This document shows positions 231 through 33,040 of a stretch of 33,040 nucleotides of DNA, piece after piece. Source of the DNA: Elusimicrobiota bacterium (lineage in GTDB: Bacteria > CG03). Numbering within the stretch: the stretch's first letter is position 1; each line of letters begins with the position of its first letter. The notes under the pieces are model-generated. The model was not told the origin of the DNA and did no database searches. It worked only from the letters and a program-made list of their open reading frames with translations. Both the position numbers and the translations under genes were made by a program. The DNA is taken from the NCBI GenBank assembly GCA_021161565.1, contig JAGHAK010000020.1, positions 1-33,040 of the forward strand. The letters are read 5' to 3'.

Positions 231-995
231 ATGAAATTAGTTGACCTTTCCCAGCCTATCAGTCATTTGACTCCGCCCTGGCCGACTTACGAGCCGCTTC
301 AGATTAAATTTTTCAAACGGCTCGCGCCCAACGGGGCGAATGGACAGTTGTTGACTCATTCCAATCACGTGGGTACCCATCTCGACGGGCCGCTTCATTT
401 CTGCACTCATGGAAAAGACATTGCGTCTCTTCCGTTAAACGGTTATCTTTACGGGCCCGGAGTCGTGGTAGACCTTTCGGATATTGCCGAGGACTACGGA
501 ATTTACACATCGAAAGATATAGAGGAAAGGGTCGAGGTAAAAGAAGGCGACATTCTGATTATAAACACGGGCTACCATAAATATGCGTGGGACCAGAAAG
601 ATGCCGATGAAGTCAGATATATGGTAAGGCATCCGGGCCCAACGATGGAATTTGCCGATTGGTGCATAAAGAAAAAAATCAAATGGCTCGGAGTGGACTG
701 CGGTTCCGCGGATCATCCTATGAACACGAAGATAAGGGACTGGATGCCGGGCGAGGCGAAAAAGAGCGACGAGTTCCTCAAAAAAAAGTACGGCAAGGGT
801 CTCGACGATTTCTTTCCCCCCGACCATTATCAATTGATGCACATAAAACTTTTTCCTCTGGATATAATCCACGCGGAAAATCTCGGTGGCGAGATTGACA
901 CGATTCTCAACAAACGAACCACTATAGGTTGTTTCCCGTGGAAATTTGTCGGCGGGGAGTCCTGCATCTGCAGAATTGTGGCTTTTGAGGAATAG
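231..995 (+). CDS. Cyclase family protein (kynurenine formamidase-like metal hydrolase fold)
   Basis: 254 aa; HVGTHLDGPLHF matches the HxGTHxDxPxHF metal-binding motif of the cyclase family; good RBS (aggaggt). Confidence 0.85.
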   Translation: MKLVDLSQPISHLTPPWPTYEPLQIKFFKRLAPNGANGQLLTHSNHVGTHLDGPLHFCTHGKDIASLPLNGYLYGPGVVVDLSDIAEDYGIYTSKDIEERVEVKEGDILIINTGYHKYAWDQKDADEVRYMVRHPGPTMEFADWCIKKKIKWLGVDCGSADHPMNTKIRDWMPGEAKKSDEFLKKKYGKGLDDFFPPDHYQLMHIKLFPLDIIHAENLGGEIDTILNKRTTIGCFPWKFVGGESCICRIVAFEE

Positions 996-1023: not shown

Positions 1024-1956
1024 ATGAAAAGAGATTTGATTGAAGTTACAGATTTGTCGAAACGTCAGATTTTAGACCTTCTTTCTCTGACATTTAAAAT
1101 AAAGAAAACCCCGCGGCGATTCTCGCAGTCGCTCAAAGGAAAGATTCTGGCTTTGATTTTTAAGAAACCTTCCACGAGAACCCGCGTTTCGTTTGAAGCT
1201 GGGATGATTCAACTCGGCGGTGCGGCAATTAATCTGAGTTCGAGCGGAATGCAGACATCCCGCGGCGAATCCGTGAAAGACACAGCAAAGACGCTGTCCG
1301 GCTATGTCGACGCGATAATGATAAGGACGACGAGCGACGAGGAAGTTTTCGAACTTGCGAGGGAAAGTTCCGTTCCCGTCATAAACGGTCTTTCGAAATC
1401 GTATCACCCCTGCCAGGCGCTGAGCGACATATTTACCGTGTGCGAGAAAAAGGGGCTGGACGAAAAATCTGTTTATGACTTCGATTGGAGTTCGGTAAAA
1501 ATTGTTTTTGTCGGGGATTCCAATAATGTAAGCAGGTCTCTTGTGAATCTTTCGACGATTTTAAAATTCGAATTTGGTCTGATGTGTCCCGAAAGATTTC
1601 TTTTCGACAGGAGTTTTCTTGCGGAAGCGAAAAAGAAGAACCCGAATTTTCATTTTACATCCAGGATTGACAGAAAATACTTTTCGGACGCCGAATTTAT
1701 TTACACGGATGTGTGGGCAAGCATGGGAGACGAGAAGGAAAGCGCCGCAAGGAGAAGAATTTTTTCGAAATATCAGGTGAATTCCCGCCTTGTGAATATG
1801 GCGGCGAAAAATGTTTCTGTGATGCATTGTCTGCCTGCGATGAGAGGGCAGGAAATAACCGATGAGGTTATGGATTCTGCGAAGTCAATTGTGTTTCAGC
1901 AGGCGGAAAACAGAATGCATTTCCAGAAGGCGCTTCTTTACCGGCTTCTCAAATGA
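1024..1956 (+). CDS. argF: Ornithine carbamoyltransferase
   Basis: 310 aa; carbamoyl-phosphate motif STRTR, HPCQ, DVWASMGDE (SMG loop) and HCLPAMRG, all typical of OTCase. Confidence 0.88.
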   Translation: MKRDLIEVTDLSKRQILDLLSLTFKIKKTPRRFSQSLKGKILALIFKKPSTRTRVSFEAGMIQLGGAAINLSSSGMQTSRGESVKDTAKTLSGYVDAIMIRTTSDEEVFELARESSVPVINGLSKSYHPCQALSDIFTVCEKKGLDEKSVYDFDWSSVKIVFVGDSNNVSRSLVNLSTILKFEFGLMCPERFLFDRSFLAEAKKKNPNFHFTSRIDRKYFSDAEFIYTDVWASMGDEKESAARRRIFSKYQVNSRLVNMAAKNVSVMHCLPAMRGQEITDEVMDSAKSIVFQQAENRMHFQKALLYRLLK

Positions 1957-6448: not shown

Positions 6449-7265
6449 AAGGACGGTTTTGAGAACAGGCGGATTCTGCTTTCTTTACAGAGTCGAAAAT
6501 ATAAATCAACTGGCGTCGGTGGTCGCGCGTTTCGGAAAATTTTATTGTCTCGGCAACGGTTCCAATGTCGTCATAAGCGACAGCGGCGTGTCTTTGCCTG
6601 TGATACGTCTTGCCGGCGATTTTGGGAAAATCCGGTTTGAGGGCAATAACGTCATTGCCGGCGCCGGAGTTCCGCTTTCCTTTCTGATTGCTGAATGTGC
6701 GAAAAGGTCTCTCGATGGCATCCAGAACCTTTTCGGAATTCCCGCCACGGTTGGAGGCGCGGTTTACAAAAACGCCGCGGCATTTGGCGTTTCCTTCGGG
6801 GAAAAAGTAAAATGGGCGAATGTTTTCAGGGCCGGCCGCCTGCGAAAGATATCGGGTGGAGAGATAGGATTTGGTTACAGAAAATCCTCTTTTCTGAAGT
6901 CGGATGTCATAACGGAAGTCTGCCTCGAATTGAAAGAAGAAAGGCGGGAGTTTATAGAGGCTGAAATGAGGAAAATAAAGTTGGAAAGAATCAAAAAAGG
7001 TTTCATCGCGGCCCATGGCACGGGTTGCGTGTTCGAAAATCCGAAGGGTTATTTTGCAGGGAAACTGATAGAGGAAATCGGCTGCGGAAGTTTGCGGCGC
7101 GGCGGCGTGTCGGTATCGGAAAATCACGCGAATGTCTTCTCGACATCCCGCTCTTTTTTGGCGAAGGATGTTTTTCTGCTTTCCGAGGAGATAAAAAAAA
7201 GGGTTTTTGACGCGTGGGGCGTTTTCCTGAAAAATCTGATAGAATTTTGGGGAAACCTTATATGA
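6411..7265 (+). CDS. murB: UDP-N-acetylmuramate dehydrogenase
   Basis: 284 aa; LGNGSNVVISD, IPATVGGAVYKNAAAFG, GCGSLRRGGVSVSENHANVF. Confidence 0.9.
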   Translation: MKKVGMQICRLAERTVLRTGGFCFLYRVENINQLASVVARFGKFYCLGNGSNVVISDSGVSLPVIRLAGDFGKIRFEGNNVIAGAGVPLSFLIAECAKRSLDGIQNLFGIPATVGGAVYKNAAAFGVSFGEKVKWANVFRAGRLRKISGGEIGFGYRKSSFLKSDVITEVCLELKEERREFIEAEMRKIKLERIKKGFIAAHGTGCVFENPKGYFAGKLIEEIGCGSLRRGGVSVSENHANVFSTSRSFLAKDVFLLSEEIKKRVFDAWGVFLKNLIEFWGNLI

Positions 7266-8164
7266 AAAAAATCAGAAAAGTTGCGGTTCTTGCGGGTGTG
7301 TGGGAGTCGGAAAGGGAAATATCTTTTAGAACCGCTTCGGCGGTTTGCGCCTCTCTCATCCGTCTTGGTTATGAAGCGAAAATAATAGATATCGGCAGGG
7401 GCAAAAAGGCGGAAAAAATTCAGGATTTTTCTCCCGATTTTTGTTTCATCGCCTGTCACGGGCGCCTCGGCGAGGATGGAACTCTTCAGGGATTTTTGAA
7501 GACGCTCGGAATACCGTTTGGCGGTTCGGGCATTCTCGCCTCGTCGGTGGGCATGGACAAGATAGTCTCGAAGGAAATTTTCGCCGTTCTGGGATTAAAG
7601 ACGCCGCCAGGAATTTTTCTGAAAAAAACCGGGAAAATTCCACGGCTGAGGAGATTTATTCCTTTTGTCGCGAAGCCCTCGAGAGAAGGTTCCACCGTCG
7701 GGATGAGCATTGTCAGGAGCGTTCGGGGCATATCCGCCGCGATTGAGAAGGCTTTCAGGTATGATGACAGGATAATCGTGGAGAAATACATAGAAGGGAG
7801 AGAATTTACAGTGGGTTATCTCGCCGGGGCTGTTCTCCCCCCTCTTGAAATTGTGCCGAAAAACGAGTGCTATGATTACGAGTCGAAGTATGTTCGGGGA
7901 ATGAGCGACCACATTGTCCCCGCGAAAATCGCCGCGAGAGAAACGAGGTTTCTCAAAAGTGCGACCCAAAAAATCTGCGAATTCTTGCGCGTCCGCGGCG
8001 CCGCGCGCGTGGACTTTCTGCGCTCGTCGGCAGGCGTTTATTATGTTCTTGAACTCAACACTATTCCCGGAATGACTCCGACAAGCCTTCTTCCCGAAGC
8101 CGCATCGGCGGTTGGAATCGATTTTGACGGCGTTGTGGAAAAGATAATTTCTGATTGCGAATGA
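7262..8164 (+). CDS. ddl: D-alanine--D-alanine ligase
   Basis: Start ATG at 7262 (MKKIRKVAVLAGVWESEREIS); GREFTVGYL, ARVDFLRSSAGVYYVLELNTIPGMTPTSLLPEAASAVGIDF. Confidence 0.9.
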   Translation: MKKIRKVAVLAGVWESEREISFRTASAVCASLIRLGYEAKIIDIGRGKKAEKIQDFSPDFCFIACHGRLGEDGTLQGFLKTLGIPFGGSGILASSVGMDKIVSKEIFAVLGLKTPPGIFLKKTGKIPRLRRFIPFVAKPSREGSTVGMSIVRSVRGISAAIEKAFRYDDRIIVEKYIEGREFTVGYLAGAVLPPLEIVPKNECYDYESKYVRGMSDHIVPAKIAARETRFLKSATQKICEFLRVRGAARVDFLRSSAGVYYVLELNTIPGMTPTSLLPEAASAVGIDFDGVVEKIISDCE

Positions 8165-8946
8165 GACGCAGAAGATTTAAAACCAGAAAAAATGGGATTC
8201 TGAAATTCGCGCTGTTTGCTCTTATTGTCTTTGCTGTTTTCACTCTTGGGCATTTTATTTACGGGTTTCTTCTTTCCTGGGACAAACTCAATGTCAGAAA
8301 AATAGAGGTCCGCGGGGCAAAAGTTTTAGGCCCAGATCGCGTGAAATCTTTCCTGAATCAGCGTGCGGGGAAAAACATCTTCACATACAAACTCGACGGA
8401 AAAAAAGTCGCGCGGGAAAAATGGATAAAAAAAGCGGAAATTGTGAGGGATTTTCCCGACAGAATTGTTGTAAAAATCAGAGAGCGAACGCCTCTGGCTG
8501 TTTTCGCGCGGCAGGGGAGGGAATTTGTTATTTCCGCCGATGGTTGGATCCTGGATAAAGCCTCTTTGGCGAAAAAAATTTACAAACTGCCCTTTTTTCC
8601 TGATTACGGCAAAATTTCCGCGGAAAAAAGGAAACAGGCGAGGGATTTTCTCAGGCATCTGCGCCGGGAAGAAGTCGATTTTTACAGGAGCGCGAAGAAG
8701 TTTTCGTATTCCGGAGATTCCCTCAAAATGATTCTGGACGGGTTCACGGTTTATTTCGGCAAAATTTCTCCGGATCTGGCAAATTCGAAAATTCAGGCGG
8801 TAAAAAAAATTATTGCGGATGCAGGGAAAAAGGGTGTCGGGATCGAGTATCTCGATTTGCGACCATTTACAAGAAAAACGCAAAGTGCTATTATTAAAAC
8901 TAAAAAATTACCGAAGGGAAGTTTGAAAAAGGAAAATGGCATCTGA
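8161..8946 (+). CDS. ftsQ: Cell division protein FtsQ/DivIB-like (POTRA domain)
   Basis: ATG at 8161 overlaps the ddl stop. Basic N-terminus, one TM helix, then LNVRKIEVRGAKVLGPDRVKSFL...DFPDRIVVKIRERTPLAVF; position between ddl and ftsA. Confidence 0.8.
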   Translation: MRRRRFKTRKNGILKFALFALIVFAVFTLGHFIYGFLLSWDKLNVRKIEVRGAKVLGPDRVKSFLNQRAGKNIFTYKLDGKKVAREKWIKKAEIVRDFPDRIVVKIRERTPLAVFARQGREFVISADGWILDKASLAKKIYKLPFFPDYGKISAEKRKQARDFLRHLRREEVDFYRSAKKFSYSGDSLKMILDGFTVYFGKISPDLANSKIQAVKKIIADAGKKGVGIEYLDLRPFTRKTQSAIIKTKKLPKGSLKKENGI

Positions 8947-10153
8947 AATTCTTCAGGCTGGTCTTGAGATAGGTTCTTCTCATATTAAGTGTGTCATAGG
9001 GAAAGTGTCGGGTGAGACAATCAGAGTCCTTGGCGCTTCTTCCACGAGGTGCAAGGGTATTCAGGACGGCAATGTCGTTAATATTGCGAAGACAATCGAG
9101 GCGATTAGGGAAGTTGTTGGAATGTCCGAAGAGCAGGCGAAGCAGAACATAAATTATGTGAATCTCGGGCTTCACGGGCTGCACATCCAGTCGCAAAACC
9201 ATATCGGCGCGATAGGAATTGTCTCGCAGGACAGGGAAATAGGCGTCCATGACATTCGTCAGGTTCTGGAATCGGCGCGTGGTTCGAGTCATTACACAAT
9301 GGGAACGCAGATAATACACACGATTCCGCAGGAATACATTGTCGATAATCAGCGCGGCGTTGTCGATCCTCAGGGAATGGTCGCGAATCATTTGAAAGTA
9401 AATGTCCACATCGTCACGGCGCTCACCTCCGCCATAATAAATCTCAGAAGATGCGTGGAGAAGGCGGGTTTCGGAATAAATCATTTGATTTTGGCGTCGC
9501 TGGCGGCGTCCGATGTTATTTTGCTTGACGAGGAAAGGGACATAGGATGTATTCTCATCGACTTCGGCGGGCGGTTGTGCGAAGTCAGTTATTATTCTTC
9601 CGGGGCGATTCGGGGATTCGCGGCGTTCTCCAACGCCAGCGACAACATTACGGGCGACCTTGCTTATTTTTTCAAAACTTCCCATGAAGAAGCCGCGAGA
9701 ATAAAAGAGGATTTCGGGTTTGCGACTCCAGCCCATATTCCGAAAGAGGGCAAGGTAACCATAACGAAGATCGACGGCAGAACGAGAGAGGAAGTTCCGA
9801 TAAAGGCGGTTTCGAAGGCGATAAACGACAGGCTTGAAGACATATTCGAAAGAGTCAACGCGCAGATTGCGAAGTTTGTCGGAAGGCCGGAGATGATAGC
9901 CAGTTGCGTGGTCACCGGCGGCGGCGCGAAACTTCCGGGCATCGCGGAGTTTTTTCAGGAAAGAACGGGGATTATCACCCGTCTCGGGCTTGTGAGAAAC
10001 TGCATAGGAGACGATGAAGTTGTAAACGACCCCGCCTATACCGCGGCAATAGGGCTTTTGAAATACGACATAACAAAGGAAGCCCCCACGCTCGGCGGCA
10101 AAAGCGGCCACCGGAGAAAAGGGCTTATCGAGTGGCTGAGAAAAATTTTTTAA
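8936..10153 (+). CDS. ftsA: Cell division protein FtsA
   Basis: 405 aa; actin-fold layout GLEIGSSHIKCVIG, SHMA-like domain, CVVTGGGAKLPGI, amphipathic C-terminus GLIEWLRKIF. Confidence 0.87.
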   Translation: MASEILQAGLEIGSSHIKCVIGKVSGETIRVLGASSTRCKGIQDGNVVNIAKTIEAIREVVGMSEEQAKQNINYVNLGLHGLHIQSQNHIGAIGIVSQDREIGVHDIRQVLESARGSSHYTMGTQIIHTIPQEYIVDNQRGVVDPQGMVANHLKVNVHIVTALTSAIINLRRCVEKAGFGINHLILASLAASDVILLDEERDIGCILIDFGGRLCEVSYYSSGAIRGFAAFSNASDNITGDLAYFFKTSHEEAARIKEDFGFATPAHIPKEGKVTITKIDGRTREEVPIKAVSKAINDRLEDIFERVNAQIAKFVGRPEMIASCVVTGGGAKLPGIAEFFQERTGIITRLGLVRNCIGDDEVVNDPAYTAAIGLLKYDITKEAPTLGGKSGHRRKGLIEWLRKIF

Positions 10154-10172
10154 TATTTTTCGAGGAGGAGAA

Positions 10173-11249
10173 GTGAGAACGAACAAGTTTCTTGGAAAAG
10201 ATTGGATTGACGCGGAATTGGATTTCACAAAAGAGGAGTGGGAAACGCTGATTGAAGTCGGTCTCGAACTGAAAAAACGGCATGCGATGAATCAGGACCA
10301 GACTGAAATTTTGAAAGGAAAAACGCTTTTTACGATGTTTTTTAATCAGTCCCTTCGGACGAGAAGCACATTCGCCGCAGGCATTCAGCAGCTCGGAGGT
10401 TTTCATGTCGACCTCGAACCGGGAAAGACCTACACTCCCGCGCGGGAAGGTTTTGATATTCCGTATAAAACAGAGAGAATTGCAGATGTTTCGAGAATGC
10501 TCAACAGGGTGGGAGATGCGATAGCCATAAGGATGTATGGTCCGCCGGCTTACTGGATTTACGGATTTGCCAATTCCACAATCAAGGAATTCGCCCAGTA
10601 TGCCGAAATTCCGATAATAAATATGGAATGCGACAAGTATCATCCCACGCAGGCTCTCGCCGACCTGATTACGATAAAGGAGAAATTCGGCACATTCAAG
10701 GGAATCAATCTTACGATGTCGTGGGCGTATTCGGGTTCTATCGAAAAGCCACGGGCTGTGCCGCAGAGTGTGGTTCTCGCCGCCGCGAAAATGGGAATGA
10801 ATGTGACGCTCGCTCATCCTAAAGGTTTTGAACTCGACCCCGAAGTGATTGCGGCCTGCGAAAAGTTCTCCGCCGAAACTGACGGGTCTTTCAGAATTAC
10901 AAATGATTTCGACGAAGGTTTCAAAGGCGCGCATATTGTCTATCCCAAGTCATGGGGCTCCGTTTACTGTTTCAATTACACAGACAAAACAGGAAAAACC
11001 GTCAAGAAACAGGATTTGGAAAAGGCTGAGAAAGTCAACAACGAGAACAAAAACTGGAGAACGACAAAAAAGCAAATGGAACTCGTCGACAAGCATGGGA
11101 TTTATATGCACTGTCTTCCCGCAGACAGGGGCCAGGAAGTGGATGACGATGTTATTGACGGTGAGAGGTCTGTCGTGATTGACGAAGCGGAAAACCGTCT
11201 CCACGCCCACAAAGCGATTATGGCGATGATTATGGGCGGCAGACTATAA
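10173..11249 (+). CDS. Aspartate/ornithine carbamoyltransferase superfamily protein, YgeW-like (transcarbamylase A)
   Basis: 358 aa, GTG start after gaggagg; NQSLRTRST, HPTQALADL, TMSWAYSGSIEKPRAVPQS, VYPKSWGS, HCLPADRGQEVDDDV. Lacks the OTC SMG loop. Confidence 0.82.
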   Translation: MRTNKFLGKDWIDAELDFTKEEWETLIEVGLELKKRHAMNQDQTEILKGKTLFTMFFNQSLRTRSTFAAGIQQLGGFHVDLEPGKTYTPAREGFDIPYKTERIADVSRMLNRVGDAIAIRMYGPPAYWIYGFANSTIKEFAQYAEIPIINMECDKYHPTQALADLITIKEKFGTFKGINLTMSWAYSGSIEKPRAVPQSVVLAAAKMGMNVTLAHPKGFELDPEVIAACEKFSAETDGSFRITNDFDEGFKGAHIVYPKSWGSVYCFNYTDKTGKTVKKQDLEKAEKVNNENKNWRTTKKQMELVDKHGIYMHCLPADRGQEVDDDVIDGERSVVIDEAENRLHAHKAIMAMIMGGRL

Positions 11250-11272
11250 AATGCAAAAATCAAAAATCAAGA
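11250..11272. repeat. Short AT-rich intergenic repeat (aaaatgcaaaaatcaaaaatcaa type)
   Basis: AAATGCAAAAATCAAAAATCAAG; a related sequence occurs in reverse orientation near 48-92. Confidence 0.4.
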
Positions 11273-11291
11273 GGATAAAGAGGGGGATAAT

Positions 11292-12323
11292 ATGGCTAAG
11301 TCTGAACTTTTTGGAAAAGATTTAATCTGTTCCCAGGATTGGAGAAGGCCGGAACTCGACGAAATTCTGGAACTGGCGAAAAAGATGAAGGAAAAAAGAT
11401 TTTCGCCGGAATACACCAGCCTTCTAAAGGACAGAACATTTTTTATGTTTTTTTACAATCCTTCCGTGAGGACTCGTCAGAGTTTCGAATGCGCCGCAAC
11501 GGAACTCGGCGGCCACGCCCAGTTTCTTGAGCCCAAAACGATGAGATTGAAAACGGCCAAAAGCGCGGGCGAAACCACGGAAGACGCCGCCAAGGTTATG
11601 AGCAGATATGCTTGCGGGCTGGGAATCAGAATTCTCGAGGATAAAATTTCCGCATACGGTCAGGGCGACGCGCTTCTGCGCGAATACGCAAAATATGCGT
11701 CGATTCCCGTTGTCAGCATGGCTCACGACAAGTTTCATCCCTGTCAGGGTCTGGCCGACATAATGGGAATTGAGGAACATCTCGGCGAGGATTTGAAAGG
11801 CAAAAAAATTTTGATAACCTGGGCGCACGGGGCGCTTGCGAGAAGTTTATGCAGCGTGCAGGAAGCAGCTCTTTTGGCTTCGAGATACGGGATGGATGTG
11901 ACGATCGCTCATCCGGAAGGTTACGACCTTGACGCGGAAGTTATGGATGTTGTCGGAAAGAACTGCGCTGAAAACGGAGCGAAATTCGAAATTACCAACG
12001 ATGTGAAAGAAGGATACAGGGGGGCTCATGTTGTGTATTCCAGAAACTGGATGAGTCCGAATGCCTATCACGGCGGTGAATTCCACAAACAGGAAGAAAT
12101 AGAAAAGGCGCTTCGGTATACAGATTGGATTTGCGATGCCGAAAAAATGAAGCTTTCCGAAAACGCTCTTTTTACTCATCCTATGCCCATAGACAGAGGG
12201 CATGAGGTGACAGATGAAGTTGCTTCAGGTCCGCGCTCTATAATTTATGATGTTGCGGAAAACCGCCTTCATGTCCAGAAAGCGATAATGGCTCTGACAA
12301 TGAGCGAGAAATTGAATAAGTAA
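11292..12323 (+). CDS. Second carbamoyltransferase superfamily paralog with HPMP in place of HCLP (transcarbamylase B)
   Basis: 343 aa; NPSVRTRQS, HPCQGLADI, ITWAHGALARSLCSVQEAALLASRYGMDVTIAHPEGYDLD, THPMPIDRGHEVTDEV; co-linear with transcarbamylase A. Confidence 0.82.
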   Translation: MAKSELFGKDLICSQDWRRPELDEILELAKKMKEKRFSPEYTSLLKDRTFFMFFYNPSVRTRQSFECAATELGGHAQFLEPKTMRLKTAKSAGETTEDAAKVMSRYACGLGIRILEDKISAYGQGDALLREYAKYASIPVVSMAHDKFHPCQGLADIMGIEEHLGEDLKGKKILITWAHGALARSLCSVQEAALLASRYGMDVTIAHPEGYDLDAEVMDVVGKNCAENGAKFEITNDVKEGYRGAHVVYSRNWMSPNAYHGGEFHKQEEIEKALRYTDWICDAEKMKLSENALFTHPMPIDRGHEVTDEVASGPRSIIYDVAENRLHVQKAIMALTMSEKLNK

Positions 12324-12333
12324 GGGAGGAAAA

Positions 12334-13299
12334 ATGTCAAAAGTTGCTGTTGTTGCGGTCGGCGGTAATTCGCTGATAAAGGATAAAGAACATCAGGCGG
12401 TTCCCGACCAGTATATGGCTGCTGTCGAAACAATGAAGCACATCGCGACAATGATTCAGAGCGGCTGGGATGTTGTCGTTACCCATGGCAATGGTCCGCA
12501 GGTCGGTTTTATTCTTCTGAGAAGCGAAGCGGGGAAAAAAGTTTTCGGGCTTCACACTGTTCCGCTTGATTCCTGCGGCGCCGACACACAGGGAGCGATT
12601 GGATACAATTTCCAGCAGGCTCTTTCCAACGAATTCAGGCGCAGAGGGGTCAATAAATCGGTTGCCACTGTTGTCACGAGAGTTCTTGTTGACAAAGACG
12701 ATCCCGCATTTCAAAATCCGACAAAACCTATAGGGCCTTTTCTCGAAAAAGAAGAAGCGATGATGAGAAAGGAGAAAGAAGGTTGGAATGTGATGGAAGA
12801 CGCCGGTCGCGGCTGGCGCAGAGTCGTTCCCTCTCCGGACCCGAAGTCCATACTTGAAGAAAAAGCAATTGAAACTCTTGTCAGGGGAGGTTTTGTCGTT
12901 ATAGCGGTCGGCGGCGGCGGCATTCCCGTGATAGAGGTCAAGAAAAAAAATATCATAAAGGGCTGCGCAGCGGTGATTGACAAGGATTTTGCTTCATCGC
13001 TTCTCGCCTCCAACATAAATGCGGATTTGTTTTTGATATCCACGGCGGTCGAGAAAGTTTGTCTCAATTTCGGCTCGCCTGATGAGAAAAAAATTGATAA
13101 AATGACTCTTTCGGAAGCGAAGAAATATAAGGAAGAAGGGCATTTTAAAAAGGGCAGTATGCTTCCCAAGATTGAAGCGGTGATAAGGTTCCTTGAAAAA
13201 GGCGGTAAGCAGGCGCTTATTACCTGCCCGGAGAAGATAGAAGAAGCCCTTGCCGGAAAAACGGGAACCTGGATTGTTTCCGAAAATTTGCGGGCGTAG
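12334..13299 (+). CDS. arcC: Carbamate kinase
   Basis: 321 aa; VAVGGNSL, THGNGPQVG, DTQGAIGY, AVGGGGIPV, IDKDFASSLLA, FKKGSMLPKIEA. Confidence 0.92.
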   Translation: MSKVAVVAVGGNSLIKDKEHQAVPDQYMAAVETMKHIATMIQSGWDVVVTHGNGPQVGFILLRSEAGKKVFGLHTVPLDSCGADTQGAIGYNFQQALSNEFRRRGVNKSVATVVTRVLVDKDDPAFQNPTKPIGPFLEKEEAMMRKEKEGWNVMEDAGRGWRRVVPSPDPKSILEEKAIETLVRGGFVVIAVGGGGIPVIEVKKKNIIKGCAAVIDKDFASSLLASNINADLFLISTAVEKVCLNFGSPDEKKIDKMTLSEAKKYKEEGHFKKGSMLPKIEAVIRFLEKGGKQALITCPEKIEEALAGKTGTWIVSENLRA

Positions 13300-13362
13300 T
13301 TCAGTTGGCTAGAACGCAACCTTGCCAAGGTTGAGGTCGTGGGTTCGAACCCCATCGCCCGC
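13290..13362 (+). tRNA. tRNA-Gly(GCC)
   Basis: Cloverleaf: GCGGGCG/CGCCCGC acceptor, anticodon arm CAACC-TTGCCAA-GGTTG, T arm GTGGG-TTCGAAC-CCCAT region. No encoded CCA. Confidence 0.95.
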
Positions 13363-13368
13363 TTTATT
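13347..13368 (+). repeat. 22-bp direct repeat, copy 1 (3' end of tRNA-Gly plus 6 nt)
   Basis: GAACCCCATCGCCCGCTTTATT, identical to 13568-13589. Confidence 0.95.
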
Positions 13369-29096: not shown

Positions 29097-32000
29097 ATGG
29101 GAACAATGAAACAGAAGTTTGGTTTCGGAATGTTTTTTGCCGTTTTTTTGTTTTTTCTTTCCCATCCCCTTCATGCCGTAAATGCTCCTGATTCTTTGCT
29201 CACGGATAACCAGACAAACCCGATATATGTCGACACGCCCGACCCCACTTTTTCGTGGTCGGCCTCGACCCAGTGTTATTATCAACTTGTTGTGGCTACT
29301 TCTTCGGATTTTGGCTTTTACAAATGGGATACCGGCAGAGTCACTTCTACGGTAAAATCATGCGATTATTCGGGCAGTTATCTTTCCGGAAATACGACTT
29401 ATTATTGGAAAGTCAGGGTGTGGAATGTGAATTTGTCAAGTTCGGTTTATTCGTCGACCGCGACTTTCAGGATGAATTTTTTCATAAAAAAGGGAAGTTT
29501 TGAAAGCGGGCAGGTCGTTTCTCTCGGCCGGGGCGATTTTGACGGCGATGGGAAAATAGACCTCGCTCTCGGCACTTCCGGAACTTCTTCTCTGACGAAG
29601 GTTTACAGGAATTTGGGAAACTGGAATTTTTCGCTGATGTATTCCACCCAGTACGCGCTCGATATCGGCGGAGTGGTGGTCAAGGATTTGAACAAGGACG
29701 ATTTGCCGGATTTAATCACTGGTGTTCAGATTGACAACGAGGGAACGAACACGGCAAGCCAGATTTTTTTAAATGACGGTAGTTTCAATTTTCATGAATC
29801 TGCGGCGCTGAACAAGAAAAAAACCTATTCCATAACGGTTTTCGACATAAACAGGGACGGGAATTACGATATCATCGAAGGACTCCTTTCGGGCGGCGAA
29901 GCCGGCGAGTACAATATGCTCTACAACGGTTCCGGCGCTGGGGCTTTCTCTTCTGGAGCGCAGATTTGCGAGTCGAATAACACCTATTCGATAGGGGTTG
30001 CCGATTTCAACGACGACGGTTTTCTCGACCTCGTTTGCCTGAACAATCGCAACAGCGGCACTTCTCCCGATTATTCTCCTCTTGAAACCGCTATTGTTTA
30101 TCAGGGCGATGGCAATGGAAATTTTACGAAAGTGTGGGAAAGTCCCGCCGGTTATTTCAACGCTGTCGCCATAGGCGATATTGACAACGACGGTTTGTGC
30201 GATTTTATCGCAGCGACTTACAGATTTGGGCCGCCTTACGGGCAGGACCAGGATAGTTATGTCACCTGTTATTACAATACGGGAAATTTCAATTTTGTCA
30301 ACGGCTTCGAATTTGCAGGTCCCATCTCGCGCGTCACATCCCTCGCTTTAACGGATGTCGACAACGACGGCTGGCTTGATTTGATTATGGGATGGAACGG
30401 AACCAGCGAAACGAAAACGAGGCCTTATCTCAATACAGGGGGAACTTTTTCCCTTCTTGATATGACGGAATTTTCAGCCGATGCGATGTCTTTCGCAGTC
30501 GGCGACTTTGACAATGATGGTGACCTTGATTATGTGGCGGGAACTTCCAACGGCTGCGAATATTATTATTCCACTCTCGCGGATGATGGAAATAGCAATT
30601 TCCCGCCGTCAGCGCCTTCGGGCGGATTTTCGTTTTTCTGGGACAGCGGAAAACTTCACTTGAACTGGGGAAATGGTACGGATAACGAAACGCCTACCGC
30701 GCTTTTGCAGTATAATCTGAAACTGCGGGACGAGTCAGGCACGGTGATTTCGCCTGAAGGAGGCGATGTTTTCAGCGAATGCGACGGATTTTATGGAAAT
30801 ATGCTCACCAGCACCTGGACGGTTTTGAATGTTCCGAGAAAAACTTATTTTTATTCGATTCAAACAATCGATGCTTACGGCGCTGAGAGTTCTTTTTCCG
30901 CAGAAACCACGGTCAACGAGAAACCGTATCCGGGCTGGGATTCGGAAAACGTCATTCCTTCCACCGGATGCCGGCAGTACACGAAGGATGATGTTCTTCA
31001 GGATTTCAGTTTGAGAGGCTGCGTGACGGTTGATTTCAAAGTCAAGGATTTCGAAAAAAACGCCGTCACTGGGAAAAATTTCGAATTTTCGCTTGACGGG
31101 GGAAATTCATGGACGGCTCTTCCCGAAGGAAGCGGCGCTCTTGACAAATTTTATTCTCCGTATTCGTTTTACTCGTCAGACTCTTTTTCCGATGCTCAAA
31201 AATACACATTCACATGGAACACGACGCATCCTGACGACCCGTCAGTTCTCTATTCCACGCGCACGCTCGCGGCAAGAGTCAGATTCAAAGTGAATGACGG
31301 ATATAGCGACAGCGATTTTTGCGAATCCGAAAATTTTGAAATTGACAACGAAAAACCCACGAATCCCGGAGATTTGACATTTAACGGTTATTACACCGGG
31401 CAGAGTTTGGGATTGAATTTCGGCTCCGCTTCTTTCGACCCGAACTTCGACGAATACATAATTTACTATAATAAAACGCTTTCGGTGAATAATGTTGGAG
31501 ACAGCATCGGAGAATGGAATTCATCGAACGACGGAAATCTTGCCGCCGCTGATTTTAACGGGGCATCCTCAACTACGATTACGGGTCTGACGGACAACAC
31601 TACGTATTATTTCGCGATTTACGCCTACGACAGTTTCGGAAACTACAATTCCGCCGTTCATGAAACTTCCGCCAAAACGAACGACATTCCTTCGATGGCT
31701 TTTCTCTCTGTGAATGCAAGCACGACGGGGACGCATCTGGTAACTTTTTCGTTCAGGGGATCGGACAGCGATGCCAATTCGTGGAATTATGTTTCCTATC
31801 AGGTGAGAAACAAGTTTGGCTCCTACATAGATGTGACCCCCGAAACGGCCGACCCGTCATACACCTCGCCTCTTTTTTTCTGCTCCACGGGGTCTGTCAA
31901 CACCTTTGTTTTCAACGCCGAAAAAGCGCTTGGCGCGGTATCTTACGATAACGCTCTTTTCAAGTTGACTGTTACAGACGGAATCGATTCATCCGAAGTT

Positions 32001-33040
32001 TCCACGCCTCTTCCATTTACCATTGACACGCTTCCGCCGTCGGGGATAACGGCATTCAAGGTGAGTGCGTTCAAGTCTTCGAGCGTTCAATTGCAGTGGA
32101 ATGTGGATGATACAGGTCAGGTTATCCAGAATCTTGTCGAGGATAATTTCTGGAAATACGCGGTGTGGTGGGGAACTTCCCCGGGTGTGACGAATTCCGC
32201 GCCGTTTAATTGCTGGGGACCGGAAAACGAGGACGCTCTCGGCAGCGCTTCCGCCATTTCCGCGGATGTGACTGGGCTTGATTCGGGAGTGAAATATTAT
32301 TTCAGGCTTTTTGTTTATGACGCTTATGGCAACATTTATTCGGGAGACGAAGTTTCCCAGGTAACCGGCGCAGGACCTACTTCGTGGTTTGACAGCGCTT
32401 CGCAGATTCCGACGGGCGACGGAACGGTCGAGGTAAAAATTTTCTGTCAGCATCCAGACAGATACGATATATTCGGCCGCCTCGAATATTCCACCGTCTC
32501 CGCCGGGGGACCATGGTATAAGGCGACTCTTTTATCCACCACGGAAGCGTACTATAATCAGACAAGCGGATATTTTACCGCTCCGCCTCCCGAAATTGAC
32601 AATTCGCAGTATTACCAGATTGGCACTTCCCAGAATCCGATTGACACTTCGACCGGGACATGGACTGCCATTTATTTGCGATGGTTAAGCCGCAACGATA
32701 TTCCTTCTGCCCGTTATGAAAATGTTTATCTGAAAACATCCGTAAAGGACATGAATGAAATCAAACAGTATTCGGACGATGTGACGGGTCCTTTTGTTGT
32801 CGATAACCTCGACCCGGGAATTTTAGGGTGTTCCTACAGCCACGGGGATGAAAATTACGGAACAAATTCCGCTTTCTTTTCCCTTGTTCTGAACAAGGAG
32901 ATAAATTCAATCGATTATTCCGGAATTTTCATTTCCACTTCGCCGTTTCCGTTGCTCTCGCAGGGTTGCGAAAAAGTTTACCTGAGCACCGGCGAATTTC
33001 TCCCGGCGGTCTCATCCTCGACGCTTTATTTTCGGCTTGA
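29097..33040 (+). CDS. Large secreted protein with 7 FG-GAP/VCBS motifs and FN3-like domains (3' truncated by window end)
   Basis: Translated by hand from ATG 29097 (MGTMKQKFGFGMFFAVFLFFLSHPLHAVNAPDS...); checked in frame at several points through 30480 and at the end (..SSSTLYFRL). Motifs include GDFDGDGKIDLALG, VADFNDDGFLDLV, IGDIDNDGLCDFI and VGDFDNDGDLDYVAG. Absent from the ORF track, presumably because no stop lies in the window. Confidence 0.85.
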   Translation, partial: MGTMKQKFGFGMFFAVFLFFLSHPLHAVNAPDSLLTDNQTNPIYVDTPDPTFSWSASTQCYYQLVVATSSDFGFYKWDTGRVTSTVKSCDYSGSYLSGNTTYYWKVRVWNVNLSSSVYSSTATFRMNFFIKKGSFESGQVVSLGRGDFDGDGKIDLALGTSGTSSLTKVYRNLGNWNFSLMYSTQYALDIGGVVVKDLNKDDLPDLITGVQIDNEGTNTASQIFLNDGSFNFHESAALNKKKTYSITVFDINRDGNYDIIEGLLSGGEAGEYNMLYNGSGAGAFSSGAQICESNNTYSIGVADFNDDGFLDLVCLNNRNSGTSPDYSPLETAIVYQGDGNGNFTKVWESPAGYFNAVAIGDIDNDGLCDFIAATYRFGPPYGQDQDSYVTCYYNTGNFNFVNGFEFAGPISRVTSLALTDVDNDGWLDLIMGWNGTSETKTRPYLNTGGTFSLLDMTEFSADAMSFAVGDFDNDGDLDYVAGTSNGCEYYYSTLADDGNSNFPPSAPSGGFSFFWDSGKLHLNWGNGTDNETPTALLQYNLKLRDESGTVISPEGGDVFSECDGFYGNMLTSTWTVLNVPRKTYFYSIQTIDAYGAESSFSAETTVNEKPYPGWDSENVIPSTGCRQYTKDDVLQDFSLRGCVTVDFKVKDFEKNAVTGKNFEFSLDGGNSWTALPEGSGALDKFYSPYSFYSSDSFSDAQKYTFTWNTTHPDDPSVLYSTRTLAARVRFKVNDGYSDSDFCESENFEIDNEKPTNPGDLTFNGYYTGQSLGLNFGSASFDPNFDEYIIYYNKTLSVNNVGDSIGEWNSSNDGNLAAADFNGASSTTITGLTDNTTYYFAIYAYDSFGNYNSAVHETSAKTNDIPSMAFLSVNASTTGTHLVTFSFRGSDSDANSWNYVSYQVRNKFGSYIDVTPETADPSYTSPLFFCSTGSVNTFVFNAEKALGAVSYDNALFKLTVTDGIDSSEVSTPLPFTIDTLPPSGITAFKVSAFKSSSVQLQWNVDDTGQVIQNLVEDNFWKYAVWWGTSPGVTNSAPFNCWGPENEDALGSASAISADVTGLDSGVKYYFRLFVYDAYGNIYSGDEVSQVTGAGPTSWFDSASQIPTGDGTVEVKIFCQHPDRYDIFGRLEYSTVSAGGPWYKATLLSTTEAYYNQTSGYFTAPPPEIDNSQYYQIGTSQNPIDTSTGTWTAIYLRWLSRNDIPSARYENVYLKTSVKDMNEIKQYSDDVTGPFVVDNLDPGILGCSYSHGDENYGTNSAFFSLVLNKEINSIDYSGIFISTSPFPLLSQGCEKVYLSTGEFLPAVSSSTLYFRL

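Follow-up and report, generated by a model that had tools for sequence, protein, structure and literature searches.

Two genes of the transcarbamylase superfamily, here called A and B, lie directly ahead of a carbamate kinase gene (arcC) in the window, i.e. the whole 33,040-nucleotide stretch of DNA that was analysed. The question raised by this locus is which reactions two neighbouring transcarbamylases could perform beside a carbamate kinase. The best-described counterpart is found in Escherichia coli, where reduction and ring opening of urate give 2,3-diureidopropionate (DUPA), one ureido group is phosphorolysed by YgeW, the second is hydrolysed by YgeY, and YgeX yields pyruvate (PMC12507026). 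On the identity of the ureido group removed by YgeW, two groups disagree (PMC12990295).

Organization of the locus

The two paralogs and arcC are encoded on one strand, with gaps of 42 bp (A/B) and 10 bp (B/arcC), exactly where a first-pass annotation of the window had placed them (Table 1). Gene A starts 19 bp past the end of ftsA, and in seven genomes of the family to which the window genome belongs the A-B-arcC module follows ftsA. Besides argF, A and B, the window genome (1.52 Mb in 169 contigs; 95% complete) contains a fourth transcarbamylase gene, which is ATCase-like and lies on C65.

Table 1. Features of the window (coordinates in nucleotides from its first letter).
Feature	Position	Strand	Description
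gene A	10173..11249	+	358 aa; GTG start, GAGGAG ribosome site ahead
gene B	11292..12323	+	343 aa
arcC	12334..13299	+	321 aa; catabolic carbamate kinase (TIGR00746, NF009007)
ftsA	8936..10153	+	directly upstream of A
argF	1024..1956	+	true ornithine transcarbamylase, carries the DVWASMG loop; outside the module, used for comparison
ddl-ftsQ-ftsA and module	7214..13299		cell-division cluster with A-B-arcC directly behind it
tRNA-Gly gene	13290..13363		overlaps the final 10 bp of arcC
putative cyclase gene	231..995		PF04199; immediately ahead of argF
repeat protein gene	29097..33038		large, secreted-looking; 1314 aa so far, continues past the contig end

The position behind ddl-ftsQ-ftsA is usually occupied by ftsZ; the module is found there in G001-G006 as well as in the window. 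A 57% identical copy of the PF04199 cyclase is located at the same position in G004 as in the window. An Rfam search of the stretch encoding the repeat protein gave zero matches.

Family assignment of A, B and ArcC

Proteins A and B share approximately 36% identity, match both PF02729 and PF00185 (1e-34 to 1e-36) and carry the SxRT and HPxQ motifs of the superfamily. The first-pass annotation had read these motifs as SLRTR/SVRTR and HPTQ/HPCQ and had noted that the ornithine loop (DxWxSMG), present in the product of argF, is missing from A and B; the sequences bear out both observations, with SLRT/SVRT and HPTQ/HPCQ present.

Neither protein reaches any NCBIfam cut-off in the transcarbamylase superfamily, that for ornithine transcarbamylase (OTC) included. 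The scores of A and B are, respectively, 256 and 260 bits with the N-acetylornithine carbamoyltransferase model (cut-off 288), 177 and 135 bits with the YgeW models NF005538 and TIGR03316 (cut-off 453), and 189 and 204 bits with the putrescine transcarbamylase model TIGR04384 (cut-off 500). The argF product scores 365.5 bits with NF001986 (cut-off 306). ArcC, whose gene adjoins those of the transcarbamylases, exceeds the equivalog cut-off of TIGR00746 (398.6 vs. 358.25 bits) and the cut-off of NF009007 (420.4 vs. 266 bits).

A tree of 92 rows (mixture model, quick search, no bootstrap) contained: (i) B, as a single clade (SH-aLRT 99); (ii) A, as a second group beside the N-acetyl- and N-succinylornithine transcarbamylases (AOTC/SOTC); (iii) YgeW together with CTs (single-copy enzymes); and (iv) A', outside all the others. 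All YgeW rows fall into a single clade (100) near the CTs, and A and B are placed elsewhere. The label "YgeW-like", given to both proteins by the first-pass annotation, is loose: they score far under the model cut-offs and lie outside the YgeW clade. Placement among OTC or putrescine transcarbamylases, which the same annotation had named as evidence against its proposal, was not seen. A and B thus make up separate, deeply branching groups, presumably both of the knotted transcarbamylases. The proline-rich loop, which in knotted enzymes threads a trefoil knot, is kept in A; B of the window keeps the insert, with no prolines there.

AlphaFold models of A and B have mean pLDDT values of 83 and 86, respectively, and Foldseek retrieved AOTC and OTC structures with both, as matches at the superfamily level only. 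The closest solved structures and best sequence models are those of AOTC/SOTC, and the top NCBIfam and PDB sequence matches are to N-acetylornithine transcarbamylase; the B model fits 3m4n (TM 0.86/0.89), and A, which groups near AOTC/SOTC, has their E/K second-site pair and extended 80's loop. It is nevertheless very improbable that the pair serves arginine synthesis as anabolic N-acetyl- or N-succinylornithine transcarbamylases: both are under the AOTC cut-off, the 80's-loop Trp is replaced by Thr in A and missing in B, the E/K pair is A/R in B, the genome also encodes a true OTC, and the neighbouring arcC specifies a catabolic carbamate kinase. Motifs, model cut-offs, tree and arcC linkage together ruled out participation of A and B in arginine biosynthesis (AOTC, SOTC or OTC) and in putrescine catabolism.

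Active-site residues

In 64 A and 52 B sequences the SxRT motif, a conserved Arg and the HPxQ motif are invariant, variable x positions aside; B as a dead subunit is ruled out by the invariance of these carbamoyl phosphate residues across its 52 sequences. The second-substrate residues are clade-specific: Y87, E152, S189, K192, K259 and D318 in A; R85, A144 and R251, with Met in HxLP, in B. The second site of A is YgeW-like, retaining the equivalents of S200, K203, K270 and D334, except that Q98 and Q160 of YgeW are replaced by Y and E; B differs from YgeW in R85, A144 and R251. The N- and C-terminal helices of YgeW are missing in A and B, whereas the CTs have YgeW second-site residues almost unaltered. 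Because the carbamoyl phosphate residues are invariant and the second-site residues vary by clade, both proteins appear to be active enzymes that differ in their second substrate. The suggestion of the first-pass annotation that these substrates are not ornithine is supported.

Conservation of the A-B-arcC linkage

GTDB species genomes were searched with the A alignment and the best 80 loci were taken. Among all loci gathered, 51 contain A and B together, and ArcC is encoded nearby in 47 of these. The pair occurs in Cloacimonadota, Bipolaricaulota/Acetothermia, Chloroflexota, Caldisericota and Elusimicrobiota-labelled genomes, among others, and also in a genome of Hermodarchaeota (an Asgard archaeon); in Candidatus Erginobacter (Auribacterota) A is present and B was not detected. 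In a separate search with B as query, B was found in 29 of 386 genomes, where the slot next to it, on the upstream side, is taken by A (23), A' (4), YgeY (1) or the contig end (1); ArcC adjoins in 27 of the 28 B loci read. The A-B-arcC order is kept across phyla; lack of linkage in relatives, the other finding that the first-pass annotation had named as evidence against its proposal, was not seen, and a catabolic carbamoyl phosphate module with ArcC, as first proposed, is supported. No description of a tandem A-B pair was found in a literature search to which most subscription literature was inaccessible, and A and B represent two transcarbamylase families without a description in the literature searched.

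The distances within A and within B correlate (r = 0.78; 0 of 2000 permutations), much of which could be explained by shared descent alone. There are clear exceptions, e.g. G005/G006, whose A and B have different histories. In G001, G003, G004 and G360, A is replaced by A' beside B.

The A' genes are located at L045:9424-10443, L044:12106-13191, L046:3512-4531, L050:9110-10126 and L157:2681-3694. A' occurs on its own in G009, and a truncated A survives just upstream of A' in G004.

Purine-catabolic context

Several relatives carry the pair in larger clusters: (i) G008 and G009, with genes for 8-oxoguanine deaminase, SsnA (above the cut-off), a YgeY-like M20 protein, A, B, ArcC, a ThrC-like enzyme and argF; (ii) G010 and G012, with a similar cluster minus the ThrC-like gene; (iii) loci L061 and L062 of Cloacimonadota, encoding full YgfK (1435 and 1431 bits; cut-off 835), Xdh subunits, A, B, ArcC and a 490-aa PLP enzyme; (iv) L072 of Chloroflexota, similar to the latter two (YgfK 991 bits); and (v) Bipolaricaulota, with HyuA, a GntR regulator, ArcC, A, B and XdhA. 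These neighbours (SsnA, YgfK, Xdh, HyuA and 8-oxoguanine deaminase) suggest a role in reductive purine (urate) catabolism, in support of the nitrogen/purine setting suggested by the first-pass annotation. Linkage to carbamate kinase and to urate genes, a trait of YgeW, is shared by the A-B pairs, the urate genes being found in relatives and not beside the window copy.

In the window genome, purine-related homologues are scattered and not clustered with A-B-arcC. They include an XdhD-like protein (TIGR03313, 900 bits; cut-off 1102), a HyuA-like protein (317 bits; cut-off 393), a ThrC-like enzyme with 51% identity to that of the relatives, and an 8-oxoguanine-deaminase-like protein. Searches of the 169 contigs of this 95% complete genome revealed neither SsnA nor a reductase resembling YgfK or UacX, and the pathway there is therefore incomplete or partly unassembled.

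The 490-aa fold-II PLP enzyme (PALP2) is encoded in the window genome on C141 (L137:4745-6217, - strand). It scores 49 bits with PF00291, matches no NCBIfam model at E 1e-30, occurs near A-B in 18 of 51 loci and is 59-78% identical across phyla; it is a candidate for the lyase acting on diaminopropionate or on one of its ureido forms. The ThrC-like enzyme is recurrent in A-B clusters, and its window genome copy lies on C66 (L139:1225-2475). Only G010, G012 and G033 yielded a YgeX-like diaminopropionate ammonia-lyase (442-517 bits; cut-off 532), and the ThrC-like gene is missing from two of these three genomes, as if one of these enzymes substituted for the other.

A and YgeY as apparent alternatives

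Among the genomes examined, YgeY exceeds the cut-off in 23 of 24 genomes with YgeW or CTs, as against 4 of 32 genomes with A-B and without YgeW/CTs; 14 of the latter 32 have no YgeY homologue of at least 120 bits (Fisher tests, p about 1e-10 and 1e-4, ignoring relatedness and MAG incompleteness). These counts are to be read with the knowledge that TIGR03526 under-scores some YgeY relatives, e.g. the G428 protein, with 250 bits there and 413 on NF009555. In at least 10 A-B genomes no YgeY-like match was found at 1e-30, and none was found in the genome of Cloacimonadota G049, where the gene order is Xdh-YgfK-A-B-ArcC-PALP2. In G428 (95% complete), YgeY lies 3 bp ahead of B, followed by ArcC, and A was not detected in the genome. 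Given this YgeY-B-ArcC layout without A, A and YgeY appear interchangeable, with B in the place of YgeW.

An M20 protein of the window genome (C141) was considered as YgeY; this is doubtful, as it scores 243 bits against 321 and a quickly built tree places it apart from the YgeY clade.

SbnA and SbnB together produce 2,3-diaminopropionate (DAP). In Kitasatospora phosalacinea and in Pandoraea, an A-clade gene shares a cluster with genes for SbnA and SbnB, each above its equivalog cut-off, and every second-site residue checked in these A-clade proteins matches the window A. The argument for DAP as a substrate of A comes from gene neighbourhood, and SbnAB shows only that DAP is made nearby.

These two clusters (L078:5223-13310 and L100:5307-13265) encode SbnA, SbnB, a PurA-like protein, an A-type transcarbamylase and a ThrC-like enzyme, and apparently represent an undescribed natural-product cluster built on ureido-diaminopropionate.

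The scarcity of YgeY in A-B genomes, the G428 layout and the SbnAB-linked A suggest that A and B could between them cover both ureido cleavages. A different division of labour, in which A and B form one heteromeric equivalent of YgeW performing a single phosphorolysis and a YgeY-type M20 hydrolase makes the second cleavage, is unlikely. It would fit the near-constant adjacency and correlated distances of A and B, as well as the YgeY-like M20 proteins beside A-B in G008-G010, G012, G041, G047 and others; however, the A and B sites both look complete, known knotted transcarbamylases are homotrimers (PMC4581275), A-clade enzymes occur in SbnAB clusters without a detected B, and at least 10 A-B genomes lack a YgeY-like match at 1e-30. 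An obligate heteromer is further disfavoured by the exchange of A for A' or YgeY with B kept, and by the differing histories in G005/G006.

The YgeY-like M20 genes in several A-B clusters, together with L062, L065 and L103, which retain YgeY and CTs alongside A-B as if for a second substrate, make redundancy or another substrate possible. The substrates of A and B could then be other ureides (hydantoin-derived N-carbamoyl amino acids, 3-ureidopropionate from pyrimidines, or allantoate), with the urate genes being just neighbours. HyuA-like hydantoinases, linked or present, and the failure to find SsnA in the window genome are in line with this, but full YgfK, Xdh and SsnA adjoin A-B in several phyla, A is linked to SbnAB, and its site is YgeW-like. 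We consider this explanation rather doubtful, albeit more plausible than the single heteromer.

Proposed pathway and comparison with known systems

Our preferred reading, to which we assign a probability slightly under one half (about 0.47), is that A-B-arcC encodes a module with two phosphorolytic steps that belongs to reductive purine (urate) catabolism. In this module, B would remove one ureido group of DUPA as carbamoyl phosphate, the role played by YgeW in E. coli; A would convert the resulting mono-ureido-diaminopropionate into DAP and a second carbamoyl phosphate, its phosphorolysis taking over from hydrolysis by YgeY; ArcC would use both carbamoyl phosphates to form ATP; and a fold-II PLP lyase (the ThrC-like enzyme or PALP2) would convert DAP into pyruvate and ammonia. 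The genes, the two groups, the intact carbamoyl phosphate sites, the differing second-substrate sites and the conserved linkage and neighbours are observed, and we infer the substrates, the order of the A and B reactions, the ATP yield and the completeness of the pathway in the window genome. DUPA and mono-ureido-diaminopropionate would be better candidates than the citrulline, ureidoglycolate or oxamate derivatives listed by the first-pass annotation. With somewhat more reserve, a fully phosphorolytic anaerobic urate pathway may be envisaged, in which two families recover both ureido groups of DUPA and A is a DAP transcarbamylase of separate origin from the known 2,3-diaminopropionate transcarbamylase (DPTCase), reused in natural-product clusters.

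The system most similar to this module is YgeW-YgeY-YqeA/ArcC, in which a transcarbamylase, there of the knotted group, is likewise encoded beside a carbamate kinase in purine-catabolic clusters (PMC12507026, PMC12990295). E. coli combines one transcarbamylase (YgeW) with a hydrolase (YgeY), whereas here there are two transcarbamylases of separate groups. The module is best called a variant of the reductive urate pathway that would work like YgeW-YgeY-ArcC; it is not YgeW itself, because model score, clade and two site residues all differ. The AllFGH proteins of oxamic transcarbamylase are not known to fall within the ATCase/OTCase superfamily, in contrast to A and B. That enzyme also forms carbamoyl phosphate from a purine-derived ureide, ahead of carbamate kinase (PMC11326118). 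DPTCase shares with A the amine partner, 2,3-diaminopropionate, which for A is proposed here; it carries an HDLP motif and is a member of the unknotted OTC branch, whereas A has HCLP and the proline-rich loop (PMC4581275).

The anaerobic urate pathway was worked out only in 2025, by the two groups that disagree on the YgeW step (PMC12990295). The A/B pair, G428 (B with YgeY) and the SbnAB-linked A offer naturally occurring cases in which the two cleavages would be separated, and they make the disputed question of the ureido group removed by YgeW testable with purified proteins. If the proposed pathway is correct, two widespread families scored by NCBI as near-miss N-acetylornithine transcarbamylases would gain a function, and two ATP would be obtained per urate, compared with one in the E. 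coli pathway, across numerous bacterial phyla and in an Asgard archaeon. The ATP yield of anaerobic purine fermentation would have to be revised if energy is conserved in both cleavages.
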